A stretch of DNA of 64,000 nt from Hericium rajendrae (Eukaryota; Basidiomycota; Agaricomycetes; Russulales; Hericiaceae). Every line of letters starts with the position of its first letter. Position 1 is the first letter of the stretch. The stretch covers positions 310,001 to 374,000 of the forward strand of contig CM065881.1 in the NCBI GenBank assembly GCA_033439255.1. The letters are read 5' to 3'. A program made the position numbers and the translations under genes. Below the pieces are notes generated by a model. It had not been told where the DNA came from, did not search any database, and saw only the letters and a program-made list of their open reading frames with translations. Below are positions 384 through 22,187 of this stretch, one piece after another.

Positions 384-2526
384 AGTATGTTCAGTCACTT
401 AGTGCATTGAGGTAATGCCAGGCGAGCTTGACAAAGTGCCATTGTTGAATGGTCATCCCGCGCCGGCCCGTCGGTCACAATGTAGCAGTTACTCAATGAC
501 AGGCCTGCTCCCCTTATGTACCAATAAGTCATTGTCTGGCCTCTGGTCATTTAATCTGTAGTGTCCATTTATCATTGACTGGCCTGGTTCACTATGTACC
601 AATGGGTCATTGTCTGGCCCACTGGATGTGGTGGGAGGTCATTGGCTGGCCCGTGCTCATGAAGTATCTACTATCCATTTCCCATTGACGGGCCTGTAGT
701 ATATACCAATGCATCATTGACGGGCCGGTTCTCTTACAATATCGCTGTACATTCATCATTCACCGGCCTGTCCTCTGACGTCCATTGGATCATTGACCGG
801 CCCATTCCATCCCGCGGGTTGTCAATTGCTCGGCCCGTCCTCCAACGTCCATTGGGTCATTGGCCGGCCAGTCCTTCTATAATACCGCTGTACATTCATC
901 ATTGACTGGCCCGTCCTCCAACGTCCATTGGGTCATTGACAGGCCCATTCCATCCCGCGGGTTGTCAATTGCTCGGCCCGTCTTCCAACATCCATTGGGT
1001 CATTGGCTGGCCAGTCCTTCTATAATACCACTGTACATTCATCATTCACCGGCCCGTCCTCCAACGTCCATTGGGTCATTGACAGGCCCATCCTCTCATA
1101 TCACCACTGTTCATTCATCATTCACCGGCCCGTCCTCCAACGTCCATTGGGTCATTGGCCGGCCGGTCCTCTTACAATACCGCTGTACATTCATCATTGA
1201 CTGGCCCGTCCTCCAACGTCCATTGGGTCATTGACAGGCCCATCCTCTCATATCACCACTGTTCATTCATCATTCACCGGCCCGTCCTCCAACGTCCATT
1301 GGATCATTGACCAGCCCATCCTCTCATATCACCACTGTTCATTCATCATTCACCGGCCCGTCCTCCAACGTCCATTGGGTCATTGACAGGCCCATTCCAT
1401 CCCGTGGGTTGTCAATTGTTCGGCCCGTCCTCCAACATCCATTGGGTCATTGGCCGGCCAGTCCTCTTACAATACCGCTGTACATTCATCATTCACCGGC
1501 CCGTCCTCCAACGTCCATTGGGTCATTGACCGGCCCATCCTCTCACAATTTCTACTATCAATTCCCCATTGACGGGCCTGCAGTATATACAAATGGGTCA
1601 TTGATGGGCCCGTCCTCTTAGAATATACCATTGTACATTCATCATTGACCGGCCCACTCGATCCCGCGGCATCACAATTGCTCGGCCCGTCCTGTACCGT
1701 CCATCGGGTCATTGACGGGCCCGTCCTCTCACAATAACACTGTACATTGGGTCATTGGCCGGCCCGTCCTTGTACAATGTCTCCTGTACATTCATCATTG
1801 ACGGGCCCGTCCTCCACCATCCAATGGGTCATTGGCTGGCCTGTCCTCCTACCATTTTTACCGTTTATTCATCATTGACGGGCCCGTCCTCTACCGTCCA
1901 TTGGATCATTAACGGGCCGGTTCTCTCACAATGTCTACTGTACATTCATCATTCACCGGCCTGTCCTCTGACGTTCATTGGGTCATTGACAGGCCCATTC
2001 CATCCCGCGGGTTGTCAATTGCTCGGCCCGTCCTCCAACGTCCATTGGGTCATTGGCCGGCCGGTCCTTCTATAATACCACTGTACATTCATCATTGACT
2101 GGCCCGTCCTCCAACGTCCATTGGGTCATTGACAGGCCCGTTCCATCCCGCGGGTTGTCAATTGCTCGGCCCGTCCTCCAACATCCATTGGGTCATTGGC
2201 CGGCCGGTCCTCTTACAATACCGCTGTACATTCATCATTCACCGGCCCGTCCTCCAACGTCCATTGGATCATTGACCAGCCCATCCTCTCATAACACCAC
2301 TGTTCATTCATCATTCACCGGCCCGTCCTCCAACGTCCATTGGGTCATTGACAGGCCAGTTCTCTTATAATACCACAGTGCACGCTCGTTACTGGGGTGA
2401 AGGTGGGTGATACCGTGTTAATATATTCCATGAGATACAATGGAATTGCATGAATTTTGGAACCTAATGAGACAAGTGCGACATCATGGAAACATAAATT
2501 AGAACGCAGCAGGCTGCTCCTGGTCC

Positions 2527-2830
2527 GTGGGTAAGGCAGGGACAACCCACCTAGCCGCGGGTAAGGCAGGGACAACCCACCTGCCGCGGATAAGGCAGGG
2601 ACAGCTAAGGCAGGGACAACCCACTTGCCGCCCACCTGCCAAGGCAAGGACAACCCCACCTGCCGCGGGTAAGGCAGGGACAGCCCACCTCCCGCGGGTA
2701 AGGCAGGGACAACCCACTTGCCGCCCACCTGCCAAGGCAGGGACAACCCCACCTGCCGCGGGTAAGGCAGGGACAACCCCACCTGCCGCGGGTAAGGCAG
2801 GGACAACCCACCTCCCGCGGGTAATCAGCC
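2527..2830. repeat. Minisatellite in left arm
   Basis: About ten units of a 27-30 bp repeat with the core GGTAAGGCAGGGACAACCC followed by CACCTGCCGCGG, with some truncated units. The same repeat in inverse orientation forms the much longer array at about 21750-23150. The conceptual peptides from it are low complexity and are not genes. Confidence 0.9.
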
Positions 2831-3128: not shown

Positions 3129-3654
3129 TAACATATACCCCCACACGCCGCTTCTCTTATAATACCACGGTTCATTCATCATTGACCGGCTCATCCTCTT
3201 ATGTCCAATGGATCATTGGCTGGCCCATTCGATCCCGCGGGTTTTCAGTTGCTCGGCTGGTCCCCTACCGTCCATTGGGTCATTAATGGGACCATCCTCT
3301 TAACAATTTCTACTGGTCATTGGGTCATTGGCCGGCCGGTCCTCTTACAATACCACTGTATATTCATCATTCACCGGTCCATCCTCTGACATCCACTGGG
3401 TCATCACCATGCCGCGGGATCAATTGCAGCGTGATGCCGTGGGATCAATCACAGTGGGGGGTTTCACTGCAGACAAAATTAGTCATTCAAAATATAAACC
3501 AGCTGTATGGTATATAACATATACCCGCACATGTGCGCATTGCATAAAACACTAACTTTAACAATCACAACTGGTATCGCGCACGTGCCTGAATTGTCAT
3601 GTGGTAGGGTTTCGTGGCGAGGTCTACACTTCATCTCCATCCATCACTTTCCAT

Positions 3655-4457
3655 ATGTCAACGAGTCCCTCACCAGACCCCCTTGAAGAGTTCCGCACCC
3701 GCGATATGCAGGAACGAAAACGTCGGGTGGAAAAGTCTCTTGCTGCACTACAGGCATCGGAAGTCGGTGACACTAACCTGAATGTGAAGCAATGGGTACA
3801 GCAATCCATCTTCGCAAAGCCATGTCAATGTGCTAATCACACTATCACCATCGTTTTAGGTAGTACTTGCCAGAGATTTTGGCTTGGTTCAACTGAGCCA
3901 TGATAGCATCCAATGTTCCGATGAAGTCCAACAATCTATTTATCATCACTTCATAGAAGATATGGATCGTTCATGGCATCCTCTCATTCCTGAATCCACC
4001 TCAACCATGACTGCTCGTGCAGCTCGTGCGCACACATCCCGCGGCATTGTTAGCCCAGGACTCACCCACGGCATGCCACCATTGACCGATACACTCCCGC
4101 GGTATAACGCCGCTCTTCTCGAGAGTGAGTTGAAATGTTTCTTGCCAGATCATACACACTAAATTCTCAAATCTACCAAATATCTAGAATGGTTACTATA
4201 CTGTACCTGGCTCTGCACCTCCTGCAGATCTTTTCGAGGAAACAAACAAAGGTTTTTTGGAGGCTTTGAACGAGTCAGAAACAGCCCAACAGGAAGCGCG
4301 CGGTATGCTGCAGAGGGCGTTGGCTGCCGAGGATACCAAGGTGAAGCAGTGGAATAGCGAAATAGGGGCGGCGATGAAGGGTAATCATAGTACACGTGGT
4401 GCCAATGCAGAGGACGTCACCGATGGCAATGATACAGACGGACGTACAAATTCATAG
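3655..4457 (+). CDS. Gene D: small coiled-coil protein of unknown function
   Basis: The start ATG at 3655 opens MSTSPSPDPLEEFRTRD. A first helical, charged exon (residues like RKRRVEKSLAALQAS) is followed by at least two introns. The middle exon reads CSDEVQQSIYHHFIEDMD, and the last exon, ending with TAG at 4457, reads LEALNESETAQQEARGML and is predicted helical. I do not recognise a family. It lies between the left arm and gene E on the same strand. CCGCGG motifs fall in it at about 4040 and 4100. Exact splice sites between 3810 and 4260 are uncertain. Confidence 0.5.
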
Positions 4458-4613
4458 ACCTTTTGTTCTTTAGCCTAAAGCGTTATCCAAATCTGGCAGT
4501 AGTATTCCACAGTCCGATGATCTGATCAATGCCCCTTTCGGTATTTTGTCCACACTTCCGCACCCTCTGTCATCTCGTTCTATTTGACCAAGTTCGCTGG
4601 AAAACAAGCCAAA

Positions 4614-5631
4614 TGCAGAGCCATCCTAGCAACGACGGTTCAGACCAGGATATCAATCCATTGACGGACCAAACCCGCGGCTCAGGTGTGTGCGGAATTG
4701 TCGAGATCCTGGCATTGCTAATCAGTAGTGTAGACAGTAGCTGGCCGACCCTAGACGAATATGGATATGATGAGGAGGAGTGGGATGGACCCCCTCCCCT
4801 AAATCCAGAAGACACGGACTTTCCCCAAGCACCTCCGCATTGCCTCGCACAACAGCTCCTCAACGAGTCTGCTTGGCGCATTCGTGATGCCATCCTATGG
4901 CTGAAAGACAAGGTGGATTACCCAGATTATGATATTATGAAGGATCAGATCTATGCCGGCATAAAGGCAGAATTGGCAAGTGGTGATTGATCTGATTGGA
5001 TTCTGATTGATGCTGAACCCGACTAGGATGCCGCGGGTTTCATCATCGGGTGGGCAGCCTTCCACTGCGAACCCCTCCTAGTCCACGACTATTTAAGGAA
5101 TGCGTACAACACATTCCACATATGCACCAAGGCATACGAGGCCCATAAGACCCCTGTTTCTGTGTCTCATATACCCTTTCAAAGGGGTAAGACTACCCTG
5201 ACCAGAATTTACATGCCATTGTGGTGGATGGAACGTGGGGGGAGTGGCTTTCAAAGAAGCAAGTGAATACCCAGGCAACAGCACTGGATAAGGCTTTCCG
5301 AAAGGGAGGGGTTTCGATACCGCCAAACGTTCTGGACCATCTCATCGTCGCCATCCAGCTGGCTGTGACAGAGGTGAGCCACGACCAATGCTGCTGGACT
5401 CTACTTACTTCTGTATTCATACAGATTCGACGCAATGACCCCATGGTGCAGAACATCGACAGTGCAATTACCCTGACCAAGAACATGATAACCGGTCTGA
5501 AATCAAGGCAGGGTGAAGACGATCAGATGGCAATGGAGATGGGGGCCCTGCTCAAATGGGCCAACATAAGCAAAGCGTATCATGGTATCGAAAACATGGC
5601 GGGCAGCTCTGGGGATATATGTGACAAGTGA
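4614..5631 (+). CDS. Gene E: unknown acidic/helical protein (possibly two genes)
   Basis: An open stretch from ATG 4614 to 4990 encodes an acidic, Pro-containing segment (DEYGYDEEEWDGPPPLNPED) and a helical tail. Coding continues with YLRNAYNTFHICTKAYEAHK near 5090-5160, VVDGTWGEWLSKKQV near 5225, an intron near 5372-5424, and a final exon ending at 5631 (KSRQGEDDQMAMEMGALL). The stop at 4990 can be avoided only by an intron, which would contain the CCGCGG at about 5031. I treat this as one gene with moderate doubt. There is no recognisable domain. It is downstream of gene D on the same strand and converges with the KDZ transposase. Confidence 0.45.
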
Positions 5632-5639
5632 ATATGATA

Positions 5640-5790
5640 GGCAGTGGGATACAGTACCGCGGGGCATGGGATACAGTGCCGCGGGACATGGGATACAGTG
5701 CCACGGGATGTGATACCATGCGGTAGGATATGCTGCCGTGGGATTTAATGCCACGGAATCGCATCAAGGACATAAGTACTGCCTTAGTGA
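5640..5790. repeat. Degenerate CCGCGG-containing tandem repeat
   Basis: GGGATACAGTRCCGCGGG-like units of about 24 bp repeat at least three times, then decay into related words (TGCCACGGGAT, TGCCGTGGGAT, ATGCCACGGAAT). It fills the gap between the convergent genes E and KDZ. The decayed copies differ mainly by C-to-T or G-to-A changes inside the CpG sites, as expected from methylation-linked decay. Confidence 0.7.
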
Positions 5791-5841
5791 CAAATGTATG
5801 CATTGATTTGGACCCGACTCGAACTCAATAACCTGAATATA

Positions 5842-8800
5842 TTACATGCCAAACTGCGATGGAGGATCGTCGCCTCTAACAAGAGCAAATGCAGCTTCTG
5901 CGGTGGTTGCAAATTCTGCCCACATTGCACTCTGACGGGCTGCATATGCCAAGTGACCCAGTTTCCCCTTCCTGTCAGCCCATATCTTCCTAGCATTCCA
6001 GGCTGCTCCACATGTCCTGAACCCGCGGGCAGTCCACTCCATTTCAAATGGAAGCACTACCATTTGCTCCTCCCAGCGATGCAACCGAGCGCGGGCGCGG
6101 AGCCATTGGACACGATGGACTGTAAGACAAGGATGAACAATCGGACATGCAAGAATGATTTTGGCTCACAATCTGCCAGCCATGTAGCCTCAGCGGAGTC
6201 CCCTTTCACATCTACACTCCAGAACCATGGCAGATTTGCATTCCGCAGCCCCCTTGCTGCGGGATCCAATACCGCGGTATGGACCTTGAGCTGTGCCCTC
6301 TCCAGCAGCTGAAGTCGTTTCAGGACCGACGACTTGACTTTCAATGTAACTAATGCCTCTCTTGCCTTCCGATATATGCGGGCCTGCTGTTGTACTGTGT
6401 TTTCGATGGACATGACATCTGCCCAGGCTCGGGTTTTGCCGCGTTGACTGCCAGCATTGCGGACGTCATGTCTGAAAACAAACGCCTTATGTCCCAATGC
6501 TAGACGAAGGCTCTGCAAAGCATCATTTGCTTGGCCCTCCCTCAACTCGGCCTCCTTGGCAACAAGCGAGCGCATCTCCGGCAACGCGCGCAACTCGTCG
6601 TCCAGGCAGGATGGGATTGACAGGGCGACCCTCTCCACTGGGACATACACATTTGTGCCGTCTGCTGCAGCATTCCCTGGAGCATGTTGCTGTTCCGGCT
6701 GCTCGATATCCTCGCCATCTTCACCTACAAGGTCGAAGTCTTCCCCTTCATTTTCAGACAATGGGATGCCACCACCTGTGACATCTGTATCCTGTGGGAG
6801 ATAGTCGCCTGCCGCCCTCTCAAATGTCGAAACCCTGGCCTGGAGACGACGTCTGCGGTCTGCTAGATCATTTTTCTGCTCCGCGGTAAGGTTTTTTCCC
6901 AACTTGCGCAGATGTGCTAGGATAGATAGCCTGCCAGTTCCATTAAAAGAATGAAATGCTGAATGAATAAGGCATTCTTTGGCAAGACTTACTGAGTTTC
7001 CTGAATGCGAAGTCCTAGAGTAATCCATGCCGCGGCACCTTGCCCCTTTTCCTTCTTTCGCTCTCGCTCATTCAATTTGGATAGGATCTCTGCTCTTGAA
7101 GGGGCTGTGTATCCCACGGAAATCAACCCCTTGCCGTGGGAACACGTCGTACCAAGTTACGCGCACCTGTTTTGATTACTGTGTCATATATCGGGACCAT
7201 GACTTCAGGCTTATCGCTGCGCTTATCCTGCGCACGCTGCTCTGCTTTGAGCCACGTGTCCCTATTCTCAGCCCCGACTGTTGCGTCGATATTTTCGAAC
7301 CCAAGACGTGCCTCCGCAATGCCTGCCTTGCCCTCTTTATACTTGCGGGTAAGGTACGATACTGTGCACCATGATCAGGATCAATGATTATTGCTCGGGA
7401 GTGAATGAACCCACCCATCCCTGTCATCTTTTTCCAATTTGAGTCATTCATATGGTCGTCCAGGACCTCTCGGCGATGAGAAGTCGTCATACCAGACGTA
7501 CTGCGAGAAATCTCGTTCAGTGGTGCCCAGAGTGTTTCGACGACTTCCCCATCAAACTGTCTGGCTCCAATGATGTAGTTTGGTGAGAACGACGGGATGC
7601 AAGTATCCTTGTGTCCGTGGACATGGAACAGCCCAATCGCCTTCTTCATTTCCTTCAAACTCGTTGGAAGGTTGAGATATGGACTTCTCTCTACTCGCTC
7701 ATCGAAATGCTTCCACCATTGACAAATGACGTCATAGTATTTCAAGATGATTTCTATCCCTTCAGTATTGTGGTTGATGGCCTGGCACATGGAGTAGTCC
7801 ATGTTCATTTGTCTGGTTGAGGGGGTGCATGAGCCATGCTGCGGGATAGCGATATGGAACCCGCGGGACGCACCTTTCGCCTTTTTGAAAGTCAACAACA
7901 GAATGGGGATAGTAAGCACCATGGCCACAGGCGGTAGCACCGATTCCGGTGTTTTCAATGTTGTGACGATCCGAGTTGACACGGTTTACAGCGCGGTGCT
8001 CATTGCAGGTGGAGCGCTAAAACATGGTCAAGCAACCTTGACCCGCGGCAATGCTGAACCACCCTACCTTGGTGACCTCCAAAGCAACTTTAAGATGTTC
8101 CTGATACTCTTTCCTTCCCACCATGAATCCGGTGCCATCACTGAGCTGGACATCATTCTCTGGCTTTCGCATCTTCACCCCAGTCGAGTCAAAATTGCCA
8201 TCCATGACAAATGTTCTTAAGAAAATCCACCTGACGAGGTATGAATCTGAGAGGAATATTCTTGAGGTGACATGCAGCTTACTTCCGTGGATCTAATTCC
8301 TTCCAATCGTCCGGCAAGTTGAACCCTGGCTGAGGGCATGCTGCACAAAACAGTGCAAATGCACCCGCGGCATCTGGCTTGTCCAAGTCCGTATGGCCAG
8401 CCCCAAACCATTTTCTCAACTTCATATCGCGCCATTCTCTTTCTACTCTGAGAAGCTCTCTGTACCGATTCTGGAGGAATATCTGATCAAAGAAATTTCC
8501 CTCTGATTACAAGAAAGTATGTATCTCACCGGTACACTGGCCGGAAATGCACTGCTCGTGAGCCGACGCAGTTTCGCATAGAAATGCCAGGCTGTGGTCT
8601 TGCATTCTAAATTATCCAGTCGGAAGTCATCCAAAACATGAAACGTGAATGCAGATTGTGGTGCATTGAAGGAGGCTGGGAAGAAGCCCATCCGAAACAG
8701 CTGCTTTGCTGGTGCCTCTGCATCTGGACACTGACACCATACGACTGGCAGCTGATGGACTCCGTTCGAATCGATCAAGCAGAGAATGGGATTGCCTTCA

Positions 8801-9578
8801 TTATCCATGTCCTGCTTGCGGACTGAATCTGTCTGGAAGTGCAGTGTGTTGTCTTCGTTACTCTGGTTCATCTGATCATCCTCCGCATCATCGTCCTCAT
8901 CCTCAACCCGGACTCCATCTCCCTTCCAGCTTCCCGCGGCATGTGGACATGCTTCTCCACCGTGACCAAGGTGGACCCGAACACCAGCTAGACGCAGCCA
9001 TGAAGGTGCAAAAAATTCGCCAGTCCACTTTTCAACGCGATGGAGTGGAAGTGCCAGATGGCGCCGTGCGCAGCATGCTGTGCATTCAAAGGGTCGGCCC
9101 ACACAATCTCCACATTTCCACAGACCTGGGCGTTCCTTGCATGAGATGCACTTGCCATCCGCAGGCCGACATTCATGCTCCAACAGGATATGGAGATAAT
9201 CCTGACGCTCATCAAGCCATTCCCGTAGGAAGTCATGCTGGCCCTATTGTAAAGCCAGTCATGCCGCCGCACTACGTGACTCGATGCCAATTCAATACTT
9301 ACCTTCCTTAATGTATTTGCAAGGGGTACACGATCGGGATCCACATCCGGTATGGTGTCCTCTTTCGGGCCCTCTCCAGATTGCTGACCGGATGCGCCGC
9401 GCAGTGGTGTGCTCCTGGCCCGGCGGGCCGGGTTGCTGGGATTCACATTACGGATTGGAATCGCAACTTGGCGATATCCGCGGGACGTCTCCTTGAGCAC
9501 TAGTGCCACTCGAGCCGGTTGACTTGGATTGCCAAATTCCTTGCGACGAACCCTGGTAGTACTCTTTCTGGTTACCAT
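5842..9578 (-). CDS. KDZ transposase with CxC2 cysteine cluster
   Basis: This is the element's DDE transposase, acting in the nucleus. ATG at 9578 opens MVTRKSTTRVRRKEF; exon 1 ends at 9303 (GTAAGT) and exon 2 starts at 9237 (HDFLREWLDERQD). The CxC2 cluster follows (CISCKERPGLWKCGDC, CTACCARRH, then LPLHRVEKW). Catalytic-core signatures come in order: MDGNF at about 8205 (first Asp), TACGHGAYYPHS, FQKGER spliced to QMNMDYSMC across a short intron at about 7870-7816, YDVICQWWKHF, and ARQFDGEVVETLW carrying the last acidic residues. The C-terminal part has NANLPWFWSVD and, after an intron at about 6170-6120, RVQWLRARARLHRWEEQM to the stop at 5842. This matches the layout of fungal KDZ proteins. 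I see no internal stop inside the exons. It lies 92 bp downstream of the TET/JBP gene. Confidence 0.9.
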
Positions 9579-9670
9579 GAGATTGGGTGAAGATGACTGT
9601 AGAATACAAGAACACGGCAAACCTGCTCGACGAGAACATGTGTAAATTTGATCGATGGTATTCGTAACTC

Positions 9671-11007
9671 TTATCGATGGCAATTATCACCATCTTCATC
9701 AGCTAGACCATCTCTATCCTGCGGCAATAAATCCGAATACTCCCGCAGGTTCATCCAGCCTGGAGAAATAACCTTTGCCCGTTCGTGAACGTTGTCTCTC
9801 AAAAACCACGCATAGCAGATACGCTCTCCGCGGAATGGGCCCACAGCATGGTTCAGGGACTTCCCTGCCACGGCTATGACTGTGCGCCTGGGGTAGTTCA
9901 GGGTCCAATTCAAACCAGGAAGGTTGAATCGGGCCCCGGAGTAGTCTCCAATGGTACACAAGATGTCGTAGCCTCCAGTCAGGCCTTGGCTATCTCTGTG
10001 TGATGGGGTGATGCGATTTGATATGATGGAGACTCCGTTGAATACCGAACTCCATCGATGTGCAACTGAAGCCAAGTGTTCGTCTTCCCTCTGTACGCCA
10101 ATCACGGAAGCCGCGGCACGGTAAAGGTCTGGGTTGACCACTGCTAGAATTGCACTGATAAGAGCCGCGGATTCCGCAATATCTCGGAGCCATTTGAATG
10201 GTTTCGCTGTCATTTTGTTGCGACGTTTTGGGTTCAAATTTGCTGACACCGTCCAATCATCACCTGGCATCTGTACATACGTCAGAACGTAGCCTACGTA
10301 TACGCATATATCCACTGCACATACATCATGACCCTGTGCAAACCATCCTGGAGAGAGGGTGACCGTGCCAGGTGAGAAGCGATGGGTTGCCGCGGGATCA
10401 ATGAAGAGCCCAGCATACTCACGCCATGTTGCCTGGCTGGCGCTGGTAGCGACTTTGAAGTGTTCATTGAGGTGCTCTGTAGCCTCTAGCATCTTCCTCT
10501 GCATGTGGAAATCATAAAAATATTGCATATCGCAACTGAAACTAGGCATACTTCACGCTCCTCTGACAACAAGTCAGGCAAGTACCACAAGAAGGCCTGT
10601 TCCCCGATATCGACCCCGACGCAAGGATTGGTCTGCACTGGGCGGTCAGATAGAGGCGGATAGCGCTTCAAGAATGCAGGGGTGTCCTCAGTCCTCCTCC
10701 GCTCTGCGTAGCGAGCCATGTCCCAATGTACTTGTACTGCCAAGCACGTCAATCAGATGCCGCGGTACGATGCCGTAAACATACCTCTGGTTTCCGCGGC
10801 ATCTGCCAGTTTGTGGGCAATGAAGTCCAACTCGATCAGGACATGGAGAGGTAGTATTGCAGGCCTTCGTACATCGCTAATGCTCGATCCCGCGGCTCCC
10901 CTCTGTGCCAGAACATTTGCAAAGCGGGCAGAAAGATAGTCTGCCATTTCAACCTCGTATGGGCATGCAACCGCTCTGGAATAAGGGATGGGCAGGAGAG
11001 GTGACAT
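9671..11007 (-). CDS. TET/JBP-like 2-oxoglutarate/Fe(II) dioxygenase (TET-1)
   Basis: This is a predicted nucleic-acid-modifying dioxygenase; TET/JBP enzymes oxidise 5-methylcytosine or thymine using Fe(II) and 2-oxoglutarate. ATG 11007 begins MSPLLPIPYSRAVACPYEVE. The first intron (about 10796-10743) contains TACCGCGGCAT, and further introns lie near 10550-10495 and 10330-10260. The catalytic domain fills the last exon: NGVSIISNRITPSHRD has the HxD iron ligands (codons at 10000-9992), GKSLNHAVG the distal His (9850-9848), and GERICYAWFLRDNVH the Arg that binds 2-oxoglutarate. All key residues are present, about 390-400 residues in total. It is on the same strand as the KDZ transposase and ends 92 bp before its ATG. 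Linkage of TET/JBP genes to KDZ elements is known in basidiomycetes. The substrate cannot be told from sequence. Confidence 0.86.
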
Positions 11008-11573
11008 GGCAGGGGCAGGCAGGGTGACAGCAACGACACAGGTTCTATTGATGGTGCGTTCATTAATGATTGCTTATGTTTGGTTCCTACGCGGCTATTG
11101 CTGGGCGTAGATACATCGTGCTGCCTTGCCATCTTTAAATTCATTTTTCGGGGCGGAATGTGTTTTTGTGGGTTTCTTATCACCGCATCTATTGCTGAGG
11201 CATCGAAGCTGTGTTATGCTTTGTATGTAATCATCAAATGGCTGCTGGCACCACTCCGCGGCAGGGACAGCCCTTGCTGCATAGTGCAGTGTCGCTGGAC
11301 TGCATGACTGACGACGTCTCTTGCTCATCGACATTTCAGAGACAAGAATATAAATAGTTTGCTGTGTGCTGTAGATTGAGACCGTTGCCTACTACCTGAC
11401 TGTTGGCCACTGCAACGTCTTGCTGTGCCCCAGACTTACGATAGCTTCACGCTAACCGACCGGGTGATTTAATACCGACGGCATTCGCTTGGGTAAGTGC
11501 TACGTGGTCCTCTCAACAAGTCAACCTACACCCTTACCCTCCCACATCCTCATTCCTACCTCCATCTGACAAA
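11008..11573. promoter_or_regulatory. Divergent intergenic region between TET-1 and gene C
   Basis: A 566-bp gap separates two oppositely directed start codons (11007 minus, 11574 plus), so it must hold both promoters. A CCGCGG lies at about 11257. The stretch just before gene C is C/T-rich, as is usual upstream of fungal start codons. No clear TATA box was recognised. Confidence 0.5.
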
Positions 11574-14500
11574 ATGGCACCTCGCGGACCTTCCAAGGGC
11601 AAGACGAACAGCAAGAAGCCCAAGTCAACTGCGCCGCGGGACGTTCCCCCTCCCAAGGGTATCGATCCTAAGACCCTTTCGCTCCCGGACAGATACAAGA
11701 AGGTCATCAAGGCATATGTCGAAGAGTTCCGGGATGGCGATAAGCAGGCACGACAGACGGTCATCAACAATGCCATGAATTCAATGAGGGATAAGTATCC
11801 GAAGGAGTTCAAGGACTGGAAGGAAGACAGGTTTCTTGTGAAGCGGGTAAGCGTGCACCACATCATGTCGTTCCTTCCATATTTAATCCTTGTACCAGGC
11901 AGTCGCTCAGTGGTTCAACAACAATGGTAGAAAAAAGGAGACAGGCCCCGACCATCACTTCGTCAGCAAGTACAACAAGCGGCTGGTCGCAGCGCAAGTT
12001 AGAAAAGCAGACTTGGACGCATTCATAGCACACCATGCTCCTGACGTTAACCTCTTTTCGAATTGGCAACAATTACTGTCTGCGTTCCTCGAAGAACATG
12101 TGGATGCAGATGAGATGGAGGGATATGCTGCATTGGCACAGGAATGGTCGGAAAGTGGGCCGCCAGTTGAGGTCCAGCGGAAGTGAGTGCTTTCCGCAAT
12201 GATCTCGTCTTGCAATGCTGATTTTTACCCAGAAATGCGGACAACCGGGCAGTGAAATACATCAAGGATTTCTCGAAGGAGATGTTCCGGCATTGCGGGA
12301 TGACCCTCATTGTGATGTCCGCCCATGTGAATAGCAAGGGCATGTTGTGCCAAGCAGAGTAAGTTCGTATTTGTTGGAATGTGTCATTTTACTAACTATT
12401 TGCAGACATGACTACACGAATAACTTGATCCCGGACAAGAAAGGTTTTACGGACACCAACCCGAAATGGATAACGGAACCCAACGTGGCCGATGCATTCG
12501 GAAAGTGGGCAGAGTTCGCTTTGAGTGAGTGCATTATCTCCATCCCGCGGCATTCTCTCATGGCTCCCCCTCATGTCGTTTTGATGAATTCTAGATCCAG
12601 AAGTTCAAGGCTACGCGACATCGATGAAGAGGACGTGAGCATCATGGAGATCAAGTACGATGTAGACAGCGGCTGGCCTGTCCTTTTGCCGATGGACGAG
12701 TGGAAGGTGTTGGACCGCACGACGCAACAGAAGTTCATCGGGGGTTGGCTCACAGCACACTACCGTAAGTCCCGCGGCATCGTATACCATGCTCTGCAGA
12801 TATTGACATTTGAGAAGACATCTCTAAAGGTGTGAACCAGGGACCTGTCCCCTGGGGTGATGTTTGGAAGTCTGGAACCGGGTACGTTAAGGCCGAATAC
12901 CTTCCAGATGGCTGGGACACTTGGCACCATCCCTCAAAATGGACTGTCAAAATGATGAACAAAATCTACCAGCACTGGATAGAGAGGGACGATGACAACA
13001 AGATGCCATTCCGCTGGTCTTTTTGGGCTGACACTGTACGTGGCAAGGCGGTGCCCAAACGTGCCCTTGATCCGGTCCCTGGGCAAGGGCCATGCACTGT
13101 GCTGCCCCGCAAGAATCGGCCAGCTCGTCCCGCGGCATCGGCTCCCGCGGCGTCACATCCCACGGCATCAGCACCCGCGGCATCAGCGTCCAGCACCGCA
13201 AAGAAGCCACGGAAATCTCGGCAACGTTCTCCATCCGAGAAATCAGCTCGCTCGACCCCGGAGCGATCTGAGAGCTCTGCGTCTGACGATTGGAAACCTC
13301 AATCCAGCGGCAACTCAGACGAAGATGAGGAACAGGAACAGGAGCAGGATCCGGAAGAGGAACTGGAAGGCGAGGAGGAAGAGGAAGATTTTCAGAAGAT
13401 GATGGATCTGGCTGACATCTTTGGTGACGAATCACAAGAACCTGTGCCCATGGAAGAGGACGACGAGGAAGAACATGTTCCAGGCCCAGAGGAAAGCTCG
13501 CCAGCTCCAGACGGGGGCAATGGCAGGCAAGGCAAGGAAGCTCGGTCAGACTTGGAAGAGGACTCCGACACTGGGTTCGAGGACTTACTTCAGTATGTAC
13601 AAGAGGGAACCAATGGAGGTGGAAGCGATGAGGATGAGGATCCTGTGGTGACCAGTCGGCCCAGGGCTACCAACAAGGGGAATAGTCCAGGGCAAGCTGC
13701 GCCTGGGACCACCCCCACACCCTCCCGCCCATTAGCCGTCGGTGCGAAGTCGAGTGGAAGGCCTGACCACGGTCGAGCAGCCAGTGCGGTTCACTCCGAC
13801 AGTGCAGCAGGTGCGCAACCCACCCGCGGGATCCCCCGCTCTGCAAGAACGGTCGCGTACCCCCACACCCCCACCAGCCCCCTGTCCGCAATTCATGGAT
13901 CATACTTCGAAGATGACATATCAATGGGTGAAGAGGAGGCTGGCAGCGAACAAGATGTCGAGCGTCTTATGGCACCAAACAGAAGTGCTGGTCGCCCAAC
14001 TACCGGTGACAGCCCAGCGGCGACTGGTACCTCCGATGCAAATAGGATGGATTATCTTCGTTCCTTGAGCATGATTAAAGAGTACCACGACCTTCTGGAT
14101 GCCATCAACAGCTCTAAGGTATGTGGTCATTAATTGTCATTACACGATCTGAACTTGGATGATATTGTAGAATTCCTACCCCCCGCGGGCAATGCATCTG
14201 CCTGAAGGGTGGGACACAAAGTGGGGTGGATGGTCTTTCCAGAAGGAGTGGCTTCCAAAATCCCTGCATACCAAAGAAAGCGTCCGACATGTGGTAGAGT
14301 GGATCGATGGTGAGCCTTGGTACATTCCACTTTCTGAGAAGAGCAAAGGCAAGTCAACGAAGCCGCGGGATCTATACTCAAAGAGGGCACTGTTAGTGTT
14401 GGCACTCCTTCTGGGCATGCTGATGCATGATGTGGAAGCGAAGACATATCGTGACGAAAATGCGCCAAAGCATGTGCATCAGTCAGGCTGGTTTGAAGAA

Positions 14501-15692
14501 CAGTATGAACACGTGTTGGTTGCCGCGATTAAACGAATGTCGTCTGTGTTGGCTCGTTCTGGCAAAAAGGTTCATATTCTATTCCAATCGGGCCACGGGT
14601 TTCTGATCTGGAAACTATCTCTAGGTGGCCGGCAAGTCGTCGGAGACCAGCAAGAAGCATCAAGACGATGACCAGGAGGCTGAAGAGGAGCCTGCACCAA
14701 AGGTCCGTCTTCTGCCAGGATCCCGCGGTATCGATGACTCACCTGGAACTATTTGTTTAGAAACAGGGTGGTGCAAAGTCATCTCGGACTGAGACGCGGC
14801 GTGGACAGAGAGATGGGGCACAGCCACCTGCCAAGAAGGTATGTCTCTGGCTAAGACCTGGCCACATTGGTCACTTATCACGGTGCTATGTGTGTAAGGG
14901 GCCCAGTAAGCAGTCTGCGACGAGGAAGACTGGAGATATTGCCGAAGCTGAACAGGAACCTGCACCAAAGGTGTGACTCCTGCTAAGATGCAGCCACATG
15001 AGTAACTAACCACTGAGCCATGTCTCACTAACAGGCCACCGTCAAGTCGTCGCAGATGCTCATGAGGCGTCAAGAGCAGGATGCCGCGGAAGAGCCGCGT
15101 GCCAAGAAGGTACCACTTCTCATACGATCCCGCGGCATGGGTCACTGACTGCAGAGTTGTGTCCAGAGGGGGAATGGCTTGACGCAGTCGTCTGACACTG
15201 GCAAGAAGCGTCGCCGTGGAGATGAAGTGGAAGGGCAGCCAGCCCCCAAACGTAACAAGAATCACACGCAGGCAGACATTACCTCTGCCAACATCCTTGA
15301 GGTGCCCCGTCAACCAAAGCCCAGCCAACGGGTCCTTGAGTTTGTTGTCATCCCTTGCTATGTTTATTTGGTACTAACAGCAAGGCAGGGCGATGGCGCA
15401 GGATGCTTCGAAGGCAAAACGGGGTAAGGCCAAGGCAGCTGGTCCTGTTCGGAAGAGTGCGGCAGGACCTAGTGGCATGAATCCCGCGGGAATGATCGAT
15501 GTTCCTGCTGCTGGATCAAGCCGCGGGATTAGTACGGAAGAGCTCGAACGATCTGCAAGAAGGAAGGGGCGCCCTCTGGAGGTGGTTATTGAGACCCCAG
15601 CACTGCGAAAGAAACCCGCTGCACGAACGACCGGTGATAAAGCATCAGGCACCAGTGGGAAGGAAGGTGCTAGCAGCCGCAGAAGGCGTTAG
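11574..15692 (+). CDS. Gene C: long charged nuclear-type protein with repeated short exons
   Basis: ATG 11574 opens MAPRGPSKGKTNSKKPK. Three parts are visible. (i) A conserved-looking N-terminal half over several exons (SLPDRYKKVIKAYVEEF, AVAQWFNNNGRKKETGP, IKYDVDSGWPVLLPMDEW, VNQGPVPWGDVWKSG, YLPDGWDTWHHPSKWTV). (ii) A low-complexity Ser/Pro then Asp/Glu-rich region (about 13100-13950). (iii) After LLDAINSSK, an exon with HLPEGWDTKWGGWSFQKEW, then five short exons (14.62-15.3 kb) that each encode about 25 residues ending in EPAPK-like words, and a basic tail ending RRRR at 15692. The words LPDGWDTW and LPEGWDTKW suggest an internal duplication. Introns carry ATCCCGCGGCAT-like motifs (12543, 12770, 14720, 15129). 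Family not recognised; a chromatin or DNA-binding role is only a guess. Confidence 0.7.
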
Positions 15693-16013
15693 TATGGGCA
15701 CCGACCACGGTGATATCCCGCGGTTTCAACTCCACGGGAACAGATACTGGTGTGGTTTCAACACTGCATAGAGGCTTCCATACGAAATTACTGGACATTC
15801 ATGACTCCCTGAAACGATTGTTACCTTACCTCCCATCTCAATATATGTCAGTTCTGTTTGCAGAGCATCAAGACCATGATTGATTCAAAGACCATGATTA
15901 ATTCAAAGATCACGATTAATTCAAGATGATGATATCGTAAATAGACACGTAAACCGACAATCGAGTGATATGCAGAACAAAACAATTAGATGCGAGTGGA
16001 AAGCAGGTGTCAA
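15693..16013. other. Convergent gap between gene C and gene B-1
   Basis: A 321-bp stretch between the stop codons of two convergent genes. It contains one CCGCGG near 15719 and three imperfect copies of a roughly 18-bp word (ACCATGATTGATTCAAAG type) around 15870-15930. No gene or RNA was seen. Confidence 0.6.
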
Positions 16014-19000
16014 TTACGCATGCCCGGCACCTGCAGAGTCCTCATTGGCGCTTTCCTGCAAGTCCCGGGGGGAGTGGGAACCCGCGGCACCAGCGGCACC
16101 GTTGGACTCCTGGGAGGCCGGACTCTGACCACCACCCGCGGCACCACTGCCAGACGGACAGGGCGTCAATGACTGACGGGAAGCCCACCCGAAGCCGAGG
16201 GTCAATGCCTTGTTCGGAGCTGGAGAGGCCGCTATAGTTGGGAGCTGACCGCCATCTGATGTGGACTGAGGGAGCCTCTCCGCATGAGTAGCAGTCAGTC
16301 TAGCGAGTTCAGCTCGCATTTCACCTCCTGCAGCCCGTTCCGCGGCTACCTCCTCCCTCATGCGACCCAAGTCGTTCTGCAGCATCTCGCGGTAAGACTC
16401 CAGCAGGTCCTGCTTGAGCTGGCTTTGGCCATCCTGCATTGTCTTCTGGAAGTGGTTTCCCACTTCCTCGAGAACCGCGGGGTCGATCGTCTTTGACTTC
16501 CCTCTACGTCCGCCATCCGGTGCTCCATGCGCTCCATGTCGTTGAAGTGGGCCGTGTTGATGCAGTCCATGCGGGCATCGATGTCCTCGAATCTCGTGGC
16601 CATCGCGGTCTTGTGGTCGTCAATGTCATACGTCAGCTTCGCAAACTTTGGCTCCATCCCGCGGAGCTGCTCGATAACACCGCCTTGGGTGCGAACCTCC
16701 ATGATGAGGTGCTCCATTCGGGAGACAAGGCCATCGTACTCTGTGCGAGATACCACGGGTTGGGATCCCGCGGGAGCCGAGGACGTCGATGCCGCGGGAT
16801 CTTGCGAAGCAGCGGATGCCACGCCAGCCGGCATGTGGTTGGGAGGCGGCGGCAGGTGCTCGAACCCAGGAGGAAGGGGTGGAAGAGGGCCTTGACCATG
16901 ACGAATGAGGACATCCCAGAGCTCGGGTGTGGTGTAGTTGACCACCCCCCCACTTGTGACACCACAGGGTCGGAGGGAGCACTTCTTCTTGCCGGCGGTG
17001 CACAGGACGCAGGCAGACCCCACTCCTGGGTAGAAGCACAGTTCCTTTTTGCCGTGCGCAATACAGTTCCCACAAGGACTCAGCTGGCAACACTGGTCAG
17101 TGTCGTGGAATGGAAACAGCGAAGGGATGTACCTTCACTGCTTTGGCAGCCAGTCGGAACCGGAGTTCAGCCTCGTTCAGCTGGCTGTCGCTGTACCGCT
17201 TTGTCTTGTCCTTGACCTCATTCTGCTACTCCTAATATCAGCCTCGCAAGACTTTTAGAGTATGACTTTCCACTACCTTCTGAGCAGTATCCGCGGGAGG
17301 GGCCTGTGATATGCCGCGGGATAAGGGCTGAGTGTGTGCAAACAACGGTCAGCAATGATCATTGCTCACCTTACTCCGAAGCACCTTCTGCACTGTCTCT
17401 TGTGGTGATGCACGCTGCTTCCCTTTGTCCTTCTGTTCATGACAGGATCAGTCCTGGTCAACAATGCAACAATGCCACTCACATTTACGATGGGGATCTC
17501 CGCCTCTGTTTCAACAGGCTTTGCTGCCTGCTTACCTTTCTGCTTCTGTAAATGGTGGACCAAGTCAATTTGTGTCATCCTGATATTTGAAATACTAAGT
17601 ACCTTGGTGGGAGGAGCATCACCCTGATTGTCAGGCGATGCTACCCGCTTTGTGTTCTTGCCCTTCTAGATTCCGCGGCATTGGTGTCTACACCTCAAGG
17701 CATCGAGAGGTACTTACCTTGCTTGATGGTAATTCGGGCTCTGCTGCCTGGCTAGTAGGGCCCTTTACCCTTTGACGCTGCACAGCAGATGTTATGGTCA
17801 GCAGTGCAATCATCTTTGAAGGCGGGGCATCACCTTGGCCAAAGGCTCATCGTCGTCATCATCGTCGTCATCCTCGGTGGCGGCGGCATCCTCGTCCTCC
17901 TCGTCCTGGTGCTCCTCTTCATTCCGGACCTTGTCTTCATGCTCGTTCTCCTCGCCCTCAGCCATATCTTCGTCTATTGTGGCAGGCGGCTTGCTTCTGC
18001 GTGTCTGGAACCCGCGGGATCAGTGCACGGCACAAAATAGTTGTGGCTGCAGCTTACTTTCTTAGCCGGCATGGGCTCCTCATCCTCCTCCTCGTCCTCA
18101 GTGGGAACGAGGGCCGGCGTCTTGTACACCCTCTTCTTCGGCCGAGAGGTCCCCTGGCCACTAGGTCCAGCGTTCACCTCATCCTTCTTGGTCGACTGGG
18201 TGGGCTTGCTGCGGGCACGCTTCCGGCCCTGCTCCATCATCGTGTTGGTCTCCTCGTCCGAATTCGCATGCTTGCGGCTCTGCTGGGTGTCGAGTTCCAC
18301 GAAATCCAGCTTCTTCCGCGTTTTGGGCTGACGGCACGGTGGGGCGGGATCCAGTGCTGTGCGTGGTGCGGGGGTGGTGCGTGCAGGGCGTCCCCGGCGT
18401 GCGGTGGGTGCCGCGGTTTCCGCGGGTACCGCGGGTGCGGGTGCCGCAGGTGCTGCAGGTGTCGCGGGTGTGCGGGTGCCGCGGGTGCCGCGGGTGCCGG
18501 GTGGGGTGCCGCGGGTGTCGTCCGGGCTGGAGGTATCCCGCGTGTCGTGCGCCCAGCGGGTGCCGAGGGTGACACGGTTTCCGCGGGTGCCGCAGGTGCT
18601 GCAGGTGTTGCGGGTGCTGCGGGTGCTGTGGGTGCCGAGGATGCCGCGGGTGCCGCGGGTGCATTTGTGCTCTCAGGAGGAGGCCTCGCCGTTGCTGGAG
18701 GCGGGGTTGCTGTGGGGGCTTGGGCACCGGTGGGGACCACAGGCCTGTCTACCACAGGGCCAGGTGGATGGTGAGGCGCTGCTTGTGGGGCAGAAGGGAT
18801 ATCAGAAAATGTTGAAAACAAAAGAAATATGCTGGAATGAAAAATACCTAAGTGTGCCCACCAGATACCTGAGCCATCCGGCTGCCCCACGGGACCCGCC
18901 GCCTCTTCCATCGTGGCCCAAATACGAACCCAAGCCTTGCGCGGCTCAATACGCGGATCATCTTCGTAGACATCACGGATGCGGATGGGACGATTTTGTT

Positions 19001-19308
19001 CCTTGGCTTTTTGGCTTTCGGCCACATAGCTGAGAAACAAGGCCGAGAGGCCACAATGATCACCGGCAATCATGATCTTTTTCATGCCGGCATGTACCTC
19101 ACGCTGTCGGTGTGCGCACGGTAAGAAGAAAGTAGTTGTAAAAAATCAGTTGAAGGTAGCATACAACGTGGTTCTCCAGAAGGGCAGTCCAAGCGGCCAC
19201 ATCTGGGTTGTCCTGTTGCTTGTAACAAGCGATGGCCTGTGCCACGTATGCAACCCGCACAACGTGCTGGATCTGCAAGGGGGTCAGAGTGCGTTCTGGA
19301 GTGGACAT
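16014..19308 (-). CDS. Gene B-1: KDZ companion protein with Cys cluster and coiled coil
   Basis: ATG 19308 opens MSTPERTLTPLQIQHVVRVA. Exon 2 (about 19090-18870) reads HCGLSALFLSYVAES and RKAWVRIWATMEEAAG. A long Pro/Ala-rich, then Lys/Glu-rich, middle part is cut by many short introns. Next come KRYSDSQLNEAELRFRLAAK and a cysteine cluster (about 17090-16980) ending C-x2-C-x6-C-S, then ELWDVLIRHGQGPLPPLP, and a helical coiled-coil tail (RTEYDGLVSRMEHLIMEV; later QKTMQDGQSQLKQDLLES) to the stop at 16014. The same order is present in B-2 at 59886-62283. Near 16500 the frame of HRMADVEG and that of KSKTIDPAVLEEV differ by one base with no intron in sight, so a small frameshift is likely. Function unknown; the cluster suggests zinc-dependent DNA binding (inference). 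Confidence 0.65.
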
Positions 19309-19496
19309 TGTAAAGAGAGCAAACTAAGCAGATAGCAATGGGGAGTGGATGTGGACAGAAGAGATCAGACGCGACGGAGTTCACCGCGTCGTGTTGACTT
19401 GCGCCGCGTCTCTGACAGCTGATCACGTGATCTCGATCGGGTAATCCGTGGCTCGCCACGTCAACACGCGAACTACCTAATCTGGTCAACTTGTTG
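19309..19496. promoter_or_regulatory. Bidirectional promoter of the A-1/B-1 pair
   Basis: Only 188 bp separate the B-1 ATG (minus, 19308) from the A-1 ATG (plus, 19497). It contains GAGTTCACCGCGT at 19377-19389 and the palindrome GATCACGTGATC at 19421-19432, which includes a CACGTG E-box. Both words recur in the equivalent interval of element 2 (59743-59885), although the surrounding sequence differs. Confidence 0.65.
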
Positions 19497-20633
19497 ATGA
19501 ATTCCAACTTTGATCTCTCTCTCTTCGACGGGCTGTACACCATCCCGAAGGAAGAATCCCTGTCTCCTTTCATGCCAGTAGACGACTTGCCACCTTCTCG
19601 TGGTCCCGACACCAGCAATGCGAGCAGGGTGAATGCTCCAGACGATGACGATTGGGCGGCGATGTTGGAGGATGCCCCGGACACGTTGTGGGCTCCTGCG
19701 AAAAATGAAAACCAGGCCCAGGAGCCTGTCGATTTGATGGAAGAACTCGACATGCTGCTCGCCAATGGCCCACAGAATGCCGCGGCAAACACAATGTCCA
19801 TAGGTAGGCCAACCAAGGACTAGATCCCGCGGGATGCTCATTGCCTCCAAACTGGGACCCTTACGTCCAACAGATCAGGAGAGAGAAGTCATCATCATTC
19901 CGGACTCTGATGAAGACAGGCCAAAGAAAAAGGTATGTCTCCTGCATTCATCAATCATGCTGGCACCAAAATTCTTCAACAGCGGAAGACTGCTCCAGCA
20001 GGCAGCGAAGCCGCGGTAGGTGGTTGTTTGGATATCATGACGACCCTCGTACTGATGGAGGTCCTTCAGGTCAAGGGTGGCAATACCACAGCAGTAGGGG
20101 CCGTTATTGAGACTACATAATCAGTCTTAACACTGACTCACAGGGCTCATCTTCATGCCGCGGCAATCCGTTGCCATCTAACAGCAAGGGCAAGGCTGTA
20201 GACCAAGGCTCCAATGCACCGGTAAGAAAATATGGACTATGTGATGATTGGGTCTCATAGACATTTAGGGTTTCTGGACCACGAATATTGGTCCCAAGGG
20301 GGATCCAGAGGCCCGACAGGCCGCGTTGTCCACGATGGTAAATTATGATTTATGTGATTGAAGGTTGACCATTCACTCTCCATCTAGACAGATCTGGAGA
20401 GGAGTCTCCCACCCCTGGACCAGCCATTTTTGAATACCGGTGAAGTTGGACACCCGGCAGCGGTCATCATGCAGTCCGCCATTAGTTTGATGGCTTCCCA
20501 GAGGGACAATGCGGCGCGAAGCAGCAAGAGGTTTCAGGACATGATTGACATCCACCAGAAGGTAGAGGAATCATTGGAGGACTTGAAGGATCAGTATTTT
20601 GCATGGCGCGAGGATCGTCGTTGGGATCATTAA
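19497..20633 (+). CDS. Gene A-1: small acidic KDZ companion protein
   Basis: ATG 19497 opens MNSNFDLSLFDGLYTI. The N-terminal exon is acidic (NAPDDDDWAAMLEDAPDTLW, VDLMEELDMLLANG). Further short exons include EVIIIPDSDEDRPKKK, an acidic SUMO-interaction-like word next to basic residues, and GFLDHEYWSQGG. The last exon reads HPAAVIMQSAISLMASQRDN followed by a helix (KVEESLEDLKDQYFAW) and stops at 20633. A-2 at 59742-58596 has the same plan, including HPGSVGMMVSQQVMAA followed by a helix. The acidic start and helical tail suit a partner or transcriptional activator of protein B, but no domain is recognised. Splice sites between 19830 and 20400 are approximate. Confidence 0.6.
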
Positions 20634-21190
20634 TCAATGTGCTGTAGGATCCTGATCTGTGACGGACAATATTCAAGCATCATAGGAAATGGTGGTAGTA
20701 GACACTGTCCGATCCAAACGCTGTGCATGATCGCAGTCCAGAGCCAATTGTGAAAATGATGAATGAGTCCTTAGCAGTGTACCAGACTGGGGCATGACCC
20801 TTGGCTTATGGGTCGACTCATAAGAGTAGAGGCAATCATGAAGGTCAGAAACAGCCCTTGTTCGAGATACCCCGGGATTGGTAGATAAGAACACGGGCGA
20901 GGTTGCTGCATGCAGGGGGAATCGTGCATTTGCCGCTGCCCCTGCACATGCACGGAAACGGGCGGCCTGAGGAAAGGGACGGAATTGTGATGCCGCGGCA
21001 CATCACGAAAACATCCTAAAGCAAATGGTGGCTCGTTTGTCCCAAGACCTGCAAGCACTGTGGCCTTGTCCCCGCCGGTCACGGACGAGTCGGCAAGCAT
21101 GGAGGGGGTTCGGGTCTTGGTGGTGGTCTGCAGCACCACAGAATCAACTTCGATAAATACCATCCTGGTGTGATGTGTGCTACAACACGG
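20634..21190. other. Gap after gene A-1
   Basis: No supported gene. On the minus strand 21160-20990 there is a short open stretch ([18 protein letters not shown] and on) with normal-looking codon use. It could be another captured host-gene piece, but I cannot name it. A CCGCGG lies near 20993. Confidence 0.4.
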
Positions 21191-21440
21191 GTTCAGCAAG
21201 GTACTCGGTAACGGCCAGCTGCCCAATCTTCCTGGAACCCACCCAGACATCACCCTTCCCCTACCCGCGGCAATTGGGTTGTCCCCCCAACCCTATGGCC
21301 CGCGGAACCTATGGCCCGCGGAATGGGGTGGCTCTGGAGGCAAAGAAGCCCACCATGCATGATATGACATTATCTAAATTTTCGATGTGCTGCAGCACAC
21401 ATTCAGCAAGGTGCTCGGTAACGGCCAGCTCCCCAACCTA
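21191..21440 (+). pseudogene. Two short fragments resembling ribosomal protein uL15 (RPL28/L27a)
   Basis: The word [12 protein letters not shown] is encoded at about 21191-21233 and, with changes, again at 21411-21437; flanking sequence differs. It resembles the KVLGKGRLP segment of eukaryotic uL15. Only about 15 residues match, so the assignment is weak. It lies just inside the right arm, beside the RPS3 fragments. Confidence 0.3.
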
Positions 21441-21570
21441 CACCCACCCCTTACCCACGGCAGGTGGGGTTGTCCTTGCCTTACCGGCGGACCAGGAGCA
21501 GCCTGCTGCACTCTGATTTATGTCTCCATCATGTCGCACTTGTCTCATTAGGTTCCATTGTATCTCACAG

Positions 21571-21673: not shown

Positions 21674-22187
21674 TTTATGTTTCCATCATGTCGCACTTGT
21701 CTCATTAGATTCCATTGTATCTCACAGGATATATCAATCACCGGCGGCGGCTGATTACCCGCGGGAGGTGGGTTGTCCCTGCCTTATCCGCGGGAGGTGG
21801 GCTGTCCCTGCCTTACCCGCGGGAGGTGGGGTTGTCCCTGCCTTACCCGCGGCAAGTGGGGTTGTCCCTGCCTTACCCACGGCAAGTGGGTTGTCCCTGC
21901 CTTACCCGCGGGAGGTGGGCTGTCCCTGCCTTACCCGCGGCAGGTGGGGTTGTCCTTGCCTTGGCAGGTGGGCGGCAAGTGGGTTGTCCCTGCCTTAGCT
22001 GTCCCTGCCTTATCTGCGGCAGGTGGGTTGTCCCTGCCTTACCCATGGCAAGTGGGGTTGTCCCTGCCTTACCCACGGCAAGTGGGTTGTCCCTGCCTTA
22101 CCCGCGGGAGGTGGGGTTGTCCCTGCCTTACCCGCGGCAGGTGGGGTTGTCCCTGCCTTACCCGCGGCAGGTGGGGTTGTCCCTGCT

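Follow-up and report, generated by a model that had tools for sequence, protein, structure and literature searches.

Dense dispersal of the palindrome CCGCGG through TET-bearing KDZ transposons of Hericium rajendrae suggests a DNA-level recognition signal

We analysed a window of 64,000 nt (C4:310001-374000, C4 being contig 4) of the 46.77 Mb Hericium rajendrae genome. It contains a KDZ transposon with a TET/JBP dioxygenase gene, and we found the hexamer CCGCGG dispersed along this element at a density which strongly supports a signal acting at the level of DNA. The motif is dense in two families of such transposons, here called I (that of the window element) and II, and not in a third, family III. 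The reading we prefer, though we hold it to be about evenly balanced between true and false, is self-recognition, in which an element-encoded dimeric protein would bind the dispersed CCGCGG sites and thereby concentrate activation or TET demethylation on its own family.

The element spans approximately positions 384-25222 of the window (24.8 kb), has long inverted arms and is bounded by a 9-bp direct repeat, one or two bases of which possibly agree by chance. Both the KDZ transposase domain and the TET/JBP gene lie inside these limits. The features of the window are the following.

375..383, plus strand: left copy of the target-site duplication (GTTGCTATG); the same 9-mer stands at 25223-25231, just beyond the inverted arms.
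714..2376, no strand: left terminal array, 76/143-bp units of GACCGGCCCGTCC type, tandem and inverted repeats.
2525..2824, no strand: left 30-bp array with CCGCGG in its units, 10.3 copies; CCGCGG at 2555-2815.
3400..21450, no strand: core of 18,051 bp with 67 dispersed CCGCGG.
5645..5708, no strand: 22-bp tandem array with CCGCGG.
6057..7067, minus strand: stretch of open reading frame (ORF) lying downstream from the KDZ core; conservation 59% in family II and 39% in family III.
7176..7985, minus strand: KDZ transposase domain (Pfam PF18758, E 5.5e-27).
8443..9243, minus strand: CxC2 cysteine cluster of the KDZ transposase (Pfam PF18803, E 2.8e-26).
9671..10552, minus strand: TET/JBP dioxygenase (Pfam PF12851, E 8.9e-23).
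11445..14671, plus strand: protein B, four ORF stretches, with no Pfam family above cut-off; parts conserved in family II, the last one also in III.
13128..13187, plus strand: 15-bp tandem array with CCGCGG inside protein B.
16014..17134, minus strand: zinc-cluster-like coiled-coil protein, C-x2-C-x8-C-x8-C-x2-C-x6-C at 16979-17074; Pfam Zn_clus 11.5 bits, cut-off 21.
18406..18662, minus strand open: 9-bp minisatellite with 9 CCGCGG; the ORFs there are without homology support.
21755..23139, no strand: right 29/30-bp arrays with CCGCGG in their units.
23290..24892, no strand: right terminal array, 76/143-bp units, tandem and inverted repeats.
25223..25231, plus strand: right copy of the target-site duplication, setting the element limits at about 384-25222.
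56263..61988, no strand: 12 CCGCGG belonging to a family II element that lies partly inside the window.
61246..62157, plus strand: exon of the family II zinc-cluster-like protein, 37% identical to the family I domain, with the cysteines, K31, K33 and S35 retained.

The first-pass annotation had counted by eye about 65 CCGCGG in a core of about 18 kb, more than 100 with the arms and about 3 in the 30 kb between the elements, with 4-6 expected by chance in 18 kb, and our counts agree closely. The core contains 67 sites where models of order 0, 1 and 2 expect 6.3, 3.8 and 4.3; together with 13 in the left and 29 in the right arm this makes 109 in the element, and the 30.7 kb beside it hold 3. Models of order 3 and 4 expect 25.6 and 59.6, but these already hold most of the CCGCGG word. 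A composition-matched null, the check proposed in the same annotation, gave a mean of 3.93 (standard deviation 2.06, maximum 12) in 500 dinucleotide shuffles of the core. By z score (32) CCGCGG ranks first of all 4096 hexamers in the core, the next four being overlapping words, and among the 64 palindromic hexamers it ranks first in the core and in both arms. The density of 3.7/kb in the core compares with 0.34/kb genome-wide (15,912 in 46.77 Mb), and the part of the second element at 56001-64000 has 12 sites where 1.6 are expected.

The motif has been amplified in tandem, in units of 22, 15, 9 and 16 bp inside the core and of 30 bp in the arms. This is the one point in favour of the density being a by-product of minisatellite expansion, base composition or codon use, an explanation we find barely credible. 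Short tandem arrays hold 16 of the 67 core sites, and minisatellites were rejected as the whole cause since the other 51 lie elsewhere, in 17,553 bp, where they occupy 17 of 18 1-kb bins. Hexamers of equal composition are not elevated in the core (GGCGCC 2, CGGCCG 1, CCCGGG 2, and GCCGGC 7 against 5.1 expected), while CCACGG, one transition away from CCGCGG, is (13 against 5.0). Base composition and codon use were likewise rejected as the cause, as the dinucleotide null falls about 17-fold short and a synonymous-codon null about 8.5-fold short.

The latter null concerns 8 ORF stretches (2201 codons), which contain 21 CCGCGG, where 1000 synonymous-codon shuffles preserving proteins and codon use gave 2.46 on average and never more than 8. 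All three codon phases are used by these sites (4, 11 and 6). The earlier claim that the motif occurs in coding and gap DNA alike is borne out by a density of 3.32/kb in 11 ORF stretches (26 sites, 7838 bp) against 3.59/kb outside the listed ORFs; the 11 stretches leave out the unsupported ORFs P1-P3, and adding these three with their 9-site minisatellite gives 3.82/kb. Because the synonymous shuffles fall short and the density in ORFs is close to that outside, we conclude that CCGCGG has been selected as DNA.

The bases flanking the hexamer are also constrained. In the 134 half-sites of the core, S stands at +/-1 in 106, T/A at +/-2 in 87 and A/T at +/-3 in 63. The wider palindrome AT-S-CCGCGG-S-AT, said in the first-pass annotation to be frequent, is in its exact 12-mer form (ATSCCGCGGSAT) found at 7 of the 67 core sites; the looser WSCCGCGGSW fits 38. 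Genome-wide there are 363 places with ATSCCGCGGSAT compared to 15 with the control ATSGGCGCCSAT, and 16 of the 20 places on contig 1 belong to stretches that surround a TET gene of family I or II.

Further we wanted to know how the motif is distributed among related elements. The genome has 46 TET matches, the best 30 of which were taken as loci of 3.4 kb; it should be noted that the division into families II and III rests on TET frame length and score, that the frame of L072 (265 aa) is longer than those of the other family III loci, and that a ninth family II TET (C10:1181665), with a shorter frame, is without a locus. All nine family I loci (L045-L053) have CCGCGG as their top palindrome, with 5-12 sites each, and the eight family II loci (L054-L061) have 4, 4, 4, 4, 2, 2, 0 and 2. 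Each of the 11 family III loci (L062-L072) has 1, and two further TET loci, L043 and L044, have 0 and 1. Longer stretches give the same picture, with 42 sites in 20 kb of family II (4.8 expected) and 4 in 18 kb around a family III TET (5.0 expected). A dyad scan of 13 of these 18 kb revealed no dispersed motif of family III's own (best z 5.4), and nothing stands out in a motif scan of the L043/L044 family, for which 7 kb is too little sequence. The best 30 of 172 KDZ matches were also taken as loci (L013-L042), and together these contain 19 CCGCGG; L028 and L029 sit in family II elements, and one of the 30, L041 (4 against 1.1 expected), has CCGCGG among its top three palindromes. The enrichment in other KDZ copies for which the first-pass annotation had proposed a check is seen in families I and II, and not in family III.

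Considerable divergence separates family I from family II, their TETs being 47% identical. Of the 12 family I sites that fall in aligned exons, 9 are without a family II counterpart within 12 nt; the other 3 have one, in two cases in weakly aligned parts of protein B. CCGCGG has therefore been kept dense at mostly different places in the two families. Contig 1 starts with a family I copy in which 30 sites are spread over 10.5 kb and another 33 over 9.5 kb. The 16.4 kb separating these pieces (C1:13304-29688) hold 2 sites and another KDZ gene (C1:23563), so that the motif density ends at what looks like a nested insertion. In the family I copies on C3, C17 and C18 the distance from TET to its partner gene is 22-24 kb, similar to this split copy.

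Between the two elements of the window, where the motif is scarce, there is a weak second TET/JBP match (38987-39298, E 9.6e-6). With this one, the genome has six weak TET matches whose frames are 125-129 aa long. The same interval contains a 74-bp tandem duplication, 96% identical, at 28148-28296.

The motif also fills short elements. The sequence ATCCCGCGGGAT has 175 places in the genome; among the 50 listed, 41 lie in four clusters (C2:4167694-4172386, C2:4401983-4405430, C2:4413343-4413786 and C3:2481155-2483905) and 1 in a family I copy. Each of the four clusters includes stretches that resemble the family I arm at about 80% identity, and the genome searches gave no TET match and no candidate-gene match in them, nor a KDZ among the matches listed. 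The C3 cluster is contained in a larger family I copy and has its two arms, at 2481092 and 2487879, pointing towards each other across 6.8 kb. The short elements look like non-autonomous relatives that have retained the motif.

The ATCCCGCGGGAT-dense arm-like stretches run over C2:4167343-4172386, C2:4401920-4405430, C2:4413006-4413844 and C3:2481092-2487879. Others, also about 80% identical to the arm, were found at C5:1489725-1494402, C7:153015-158702 and C11:2007652-2015809, and several of all these stretches are facing pairs 4-8 kb apart. A further five ATCCCGCGGGAT lie within 3.7 kb at C2:4135261-4138950, where neither an arm nor a TET or candidate-gene match is listed.

That short elements with family I-like arms but without a TET match are dense in the motif is what one would expect of sites for a transposase working in trans, and it slightly favours the alternative that CCGCGG is a KDZ transposase binding site which accumulated near the ends and spilled into the interior. 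The CCGCGG units in tandem in both arms and the CxC2 cysteine cluster of the transposase would fit this as well. We nevertheless regard it as unlikely, since the interior is full of CCGCGG, family III possesses the transposase but not the motif, and the outermost arrays differ by family, being of GACCGGCCCGTCC type in family I and of TTGGCCAACC type in family II. The TTGGCCAACC repeats at the family II ends (window 56420-57302 and L074:7903-9181; 22 TTGGCCAA in 56001-64000) are perhaps the transposase sites.

A different arrangement is found in L077 (C2:782001-786000, 4 kb), where we counted 167 20-bp units that fit ATATCCCGCGGCATT plus a spacer and are arranged as two halves in inverted orientation; this template was supplied by us, with C/T and G/A allowed in the core. 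Exactly 20 bp separate the units in 155 steps. The core is CCGCGG in 10 of the 167 units and most commonly CCGCAG (19), and the last CpG has A in 91 against G in 75. Because of this pattern of transitions at CpGs the array appears to be decayed CCGCGG. One of its borders bears the TTGGCCAACC repeats of family II ends. A second array of 20-bp units at C14:447911-451593 was identified by pattern only (28 pattern matches), and both arrays carry the motif without a TET match.

Decay at CpGs is also evident between copies of the element. Transitions at CpGs make up 25 of 28, 26 of 30, 26 of 31 and 27 of 31 differences in four close copies, and 7 of 11, 7 of 10 and 6 of 7 in the three closest. This excess suggests that CpG is methylated and deaminating in these copies, in which case a word with two CpGs would be expected to erode and not to be enriched. 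The first-pass annotation was right that copies decay at the CpGs, but the decay is common to CpGs in general in the element and not specific to the motif. Since CpG transitions account for most differences among close copies and the CpGs of the motif decay no less than others, a protein-binding signal seems to fit better than a methylation signal. The suggestion of a dispersed binding or methylation signal is accordingly sustained as to the DNA-level signal, by the shuffles, the density, family II and the short elements, with binding favoured of its two forms. Single sites appear to have no visible protection in close copies, and density would be kept up in the lineage that is still mobile. 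The family I locus L053 was considered as an independent lineage for site conservation and rejected, as its aligned exons are 98.8-99.1% identical and its upstream part is unalignable.

The CpG-transition decay, as a sign of methylation, counts in favour of the possibility that the sites serve a host factor, either an exploited zinc-cluster activator or a silencing factor. Fungal zinc-cluster regulators that bind everted CGG repeats are indeed known, as far as the covered parts of the sources go (PMC3091778, PMC8211738). Still, any element could make use of a host factor, whereas among the TET families with loci the dense motif tracks those with a candidate binder of their own, and a silencing tag should be selected against rather than retained in arrays. 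We therefore think a host factor rather improbable.

Finally, the motif might belong to protein B (11.4-14.7 kb) or be a spacing or nucleosome signal, to which we attach little probability. Conservation of protein B between families I and II favours the former, but a part of it also occurs, at 26% identity, in the motif-free family III. As to spacing, 14 of 58 distances between neighbouring CCGCGG in 3400-21450 (8 minisatellite sites dropped) are 339-378 bp, near 360 bp, which exceeds all 2000 random placements; this preference was noticed post hoc, although a band-scan control agrees (0/2000). A periodicity test gave a 326-bp peak of 9.2, just over the random 95% level (8.6) and under the random maximum (15.8), and a preference for about 360 bp is not apparent among the family II spacings listed.

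Under the preferred reading, self-recognition, the element should encode the binder. The first-pass annotation had suggested TET or protein B, but TET and part of protein B are present in family III as well; what accompanies the motif is instead a six-cysteine coiled-coil protein of families I and II, whose gene and the motif co-occur. One search gave 21 rows, and together with a second that used the family II protein it placed the gene at 8 sites in family I and 9 in family II. The gene is on the same strand as TET, at a distance of 7-24 kb for 8 of the 9 TETs of family I and of 7-40 kb for the 9 of family II. No match was found within 40 kb of any of the 11 family III TETs; this absence rests on genome searches, the 18 kb family III stretch covering the region only in part, and as family II was detected with family I queries at 34-39% identity, a more distant gene could escape them. 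A six-cysteine pattern in family III was rejected as the same gene, as it lies on the other strand, downstream of KDZ, and adjoins stops.

The cysteines are spaced C-x2-C-x6/8-C-x8-C-x2-C-x6-C in families I and II, and K31, K33, C34 and S35 of the domain are invariant; we take these residues to correspond to the base-reading half of Gal4. With the halves swapped, Zn_clus scores reach 14.8 and 16.1 bits, under the cut-off, and RING scores 18.7 on the swapped family I domain (cut-off 27). Because Pfam scores stay below cut-off we call the protein zinc-cluster-like, which seems the appropriate label, and do not count it as a recognised Zn2Cys6 member. The six-cysteine pattern had no match in 30 codon-block shuffles of the window. 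A structure model of the monomer has a long helix at residues 145-192, with a predicted local distance difference test score (pLDDT) of 64-81 over 151-193, and a profile search of solved structures with the protein returned chance-level matches only. Homologues of the gene (35-37%) are found at C1:1696658, C12:2154969 and C3:487465; they may read another motif or be unrelated genes. Pdr1/Pdr3, fungal zinc-cluster dimers, bind CCGCGG according to the covered parts of two sources (PMC3091778, PMC8211738).

Several observations weigh against self-recognition by this protein. Its unmodified domain scores 11.5 bits with Zn_clus (cut-off 21) in family I and nothing in family II, the half resembling the DNA-reading one comes second, and the structure model is uninformative on the fold of the six-cysteine part (pLDDT about 42). 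The cysteine pattern alone is unspecific, with 3 occurrences in 60 loci (L013-L072), and it occurs once in family III, on the opposite strand. The family I TET at C17:27609 is without a candidate-gene match. Conversely, the homologues at C1:1696658 and C12:2154969 lie about 9 and 27 kb from opposite-strand TETs whose loci have 0 (L043) and 1 (L044) CCGCGG, and there is no 12-mer on C1 between 461,718 and 4,452,987, the range holding C1:1696658. As for the motif itself, the family II loci L059 and L060 hold just 2 and 0 sites, 8 of the 50 listed ATCCCGCGGGAT places are outside clusters and family I copies, and L053 keeps CCGCGG at 4 of 7 alignable places compared to 33 of 44 for other two-CpG hexamers.

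Self-recognition would then proceed as follows. CCGCGG would be a cis-acting recognition site amassed along the whole transposon, and a dimer encoded by the element, most likely the zinc-cluster-like coiled-coil protein of 16.0-17.1 kb, would bind its everted CCG/CGG. With about one site per 230 bp on average, the bound protein would coat the element and so focus activity on members of the family; the most plausible course is that it activates chromatin or transcription and recruits the TET dioxygenase of the neighbouring gene. Methylated CpGs of the coated copies would then be oxidised or lost, and these copies would become expressible and mobile. More tentatively, and with distinctly less confidence than in self-recognition as such, we speculate that this amounts to sequence-addressed demethylation, the zinc-cluster-like protein steering the element's own TET to family members and the short elements and arrays exploiting the address in trans.

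The motif bears on the questions of why transposons carry TET and how TET could favour its own element. Non-target-specific oxidation has been suggested for transposon TET in the covered part of Kojima 2025 (PMC12730594), and a dense, family-specific address with a linked candidate reader offers a directly testable targeted alternative. If true, this would give fungi an analogue of VANC anti-silencing in which the effector is an enzyme. A motif selected strongly enough to shape codon choice over transposase and TET exons is in any case unusual in itself.

A close parallel is VANDAL21 of Arabidopsis, where VANC21 binds YAGTATTAY and motif density is needed, as far as the source is covered (PMC5735166). 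Both systems have a short motif dense in DNA transposon families, tandem amplification and a candidate trans-acting protein encoded by the element (the same source, in part). Differences in the motif between related families are common to both systems as well, families I and II sharing theirs here and III being without it. YAGTATTAY is moreover mainly non-coding and in one orientation, in a plant, according to the same partial source (PMC5735166), while the present motif, a CpG palindrome, has about the same density inside ORFs as outside them. Unlike VANDAL21, the elements described here are KDZ elements with a TET gene, and the candidate binder is another kind of protein; the VANC domain is absent from the ORF stretches scanned, in which KDZ, CxC2 and TET were found instead of a MULE transposase.

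In gene content the elements resemble the TET-bearing Kyakuja/Zisupton of mushrooms, with a KDZ transposase and an adjacent TET/JBP gene (Kojima 2025, PMC12730594, as covered). Kyakuja ends have no terminal inverted repeat, a 7-bp target-site duplication and CA..TG in that account (PMC12730594), unlike the long inverted arms found here; a 9-bp direct repeat bounds the present element at its approximate limits. The covered part of the study describes no dispersed motif or zinc-cluster partner. The candidate binder resembles Pdr1/Pdr3 of yeast, zinc-cluster dimers that read everted CCG/CGG without a spacer, as far as the sources are covered (PMC3091778, PMC8211738). Unlike it, these are host regulators at promoters, and their PDRE (TCCGCGGA) has T/A at +/-1, again as covered, where S is preferred here. 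Our literature searches found no paper on a CCGCGG motif in such elements.

In maize, TnpA of En/Spm is a protein encoded by its element, with a short repeated CpG motif and a link to demethylation; the motifs are confined to the ends and no TET is known there. The elements described here are similar in pairing a candidate protein of their own with a CpG motif, but differ in that the motif fills the interior and a TET gene is present.

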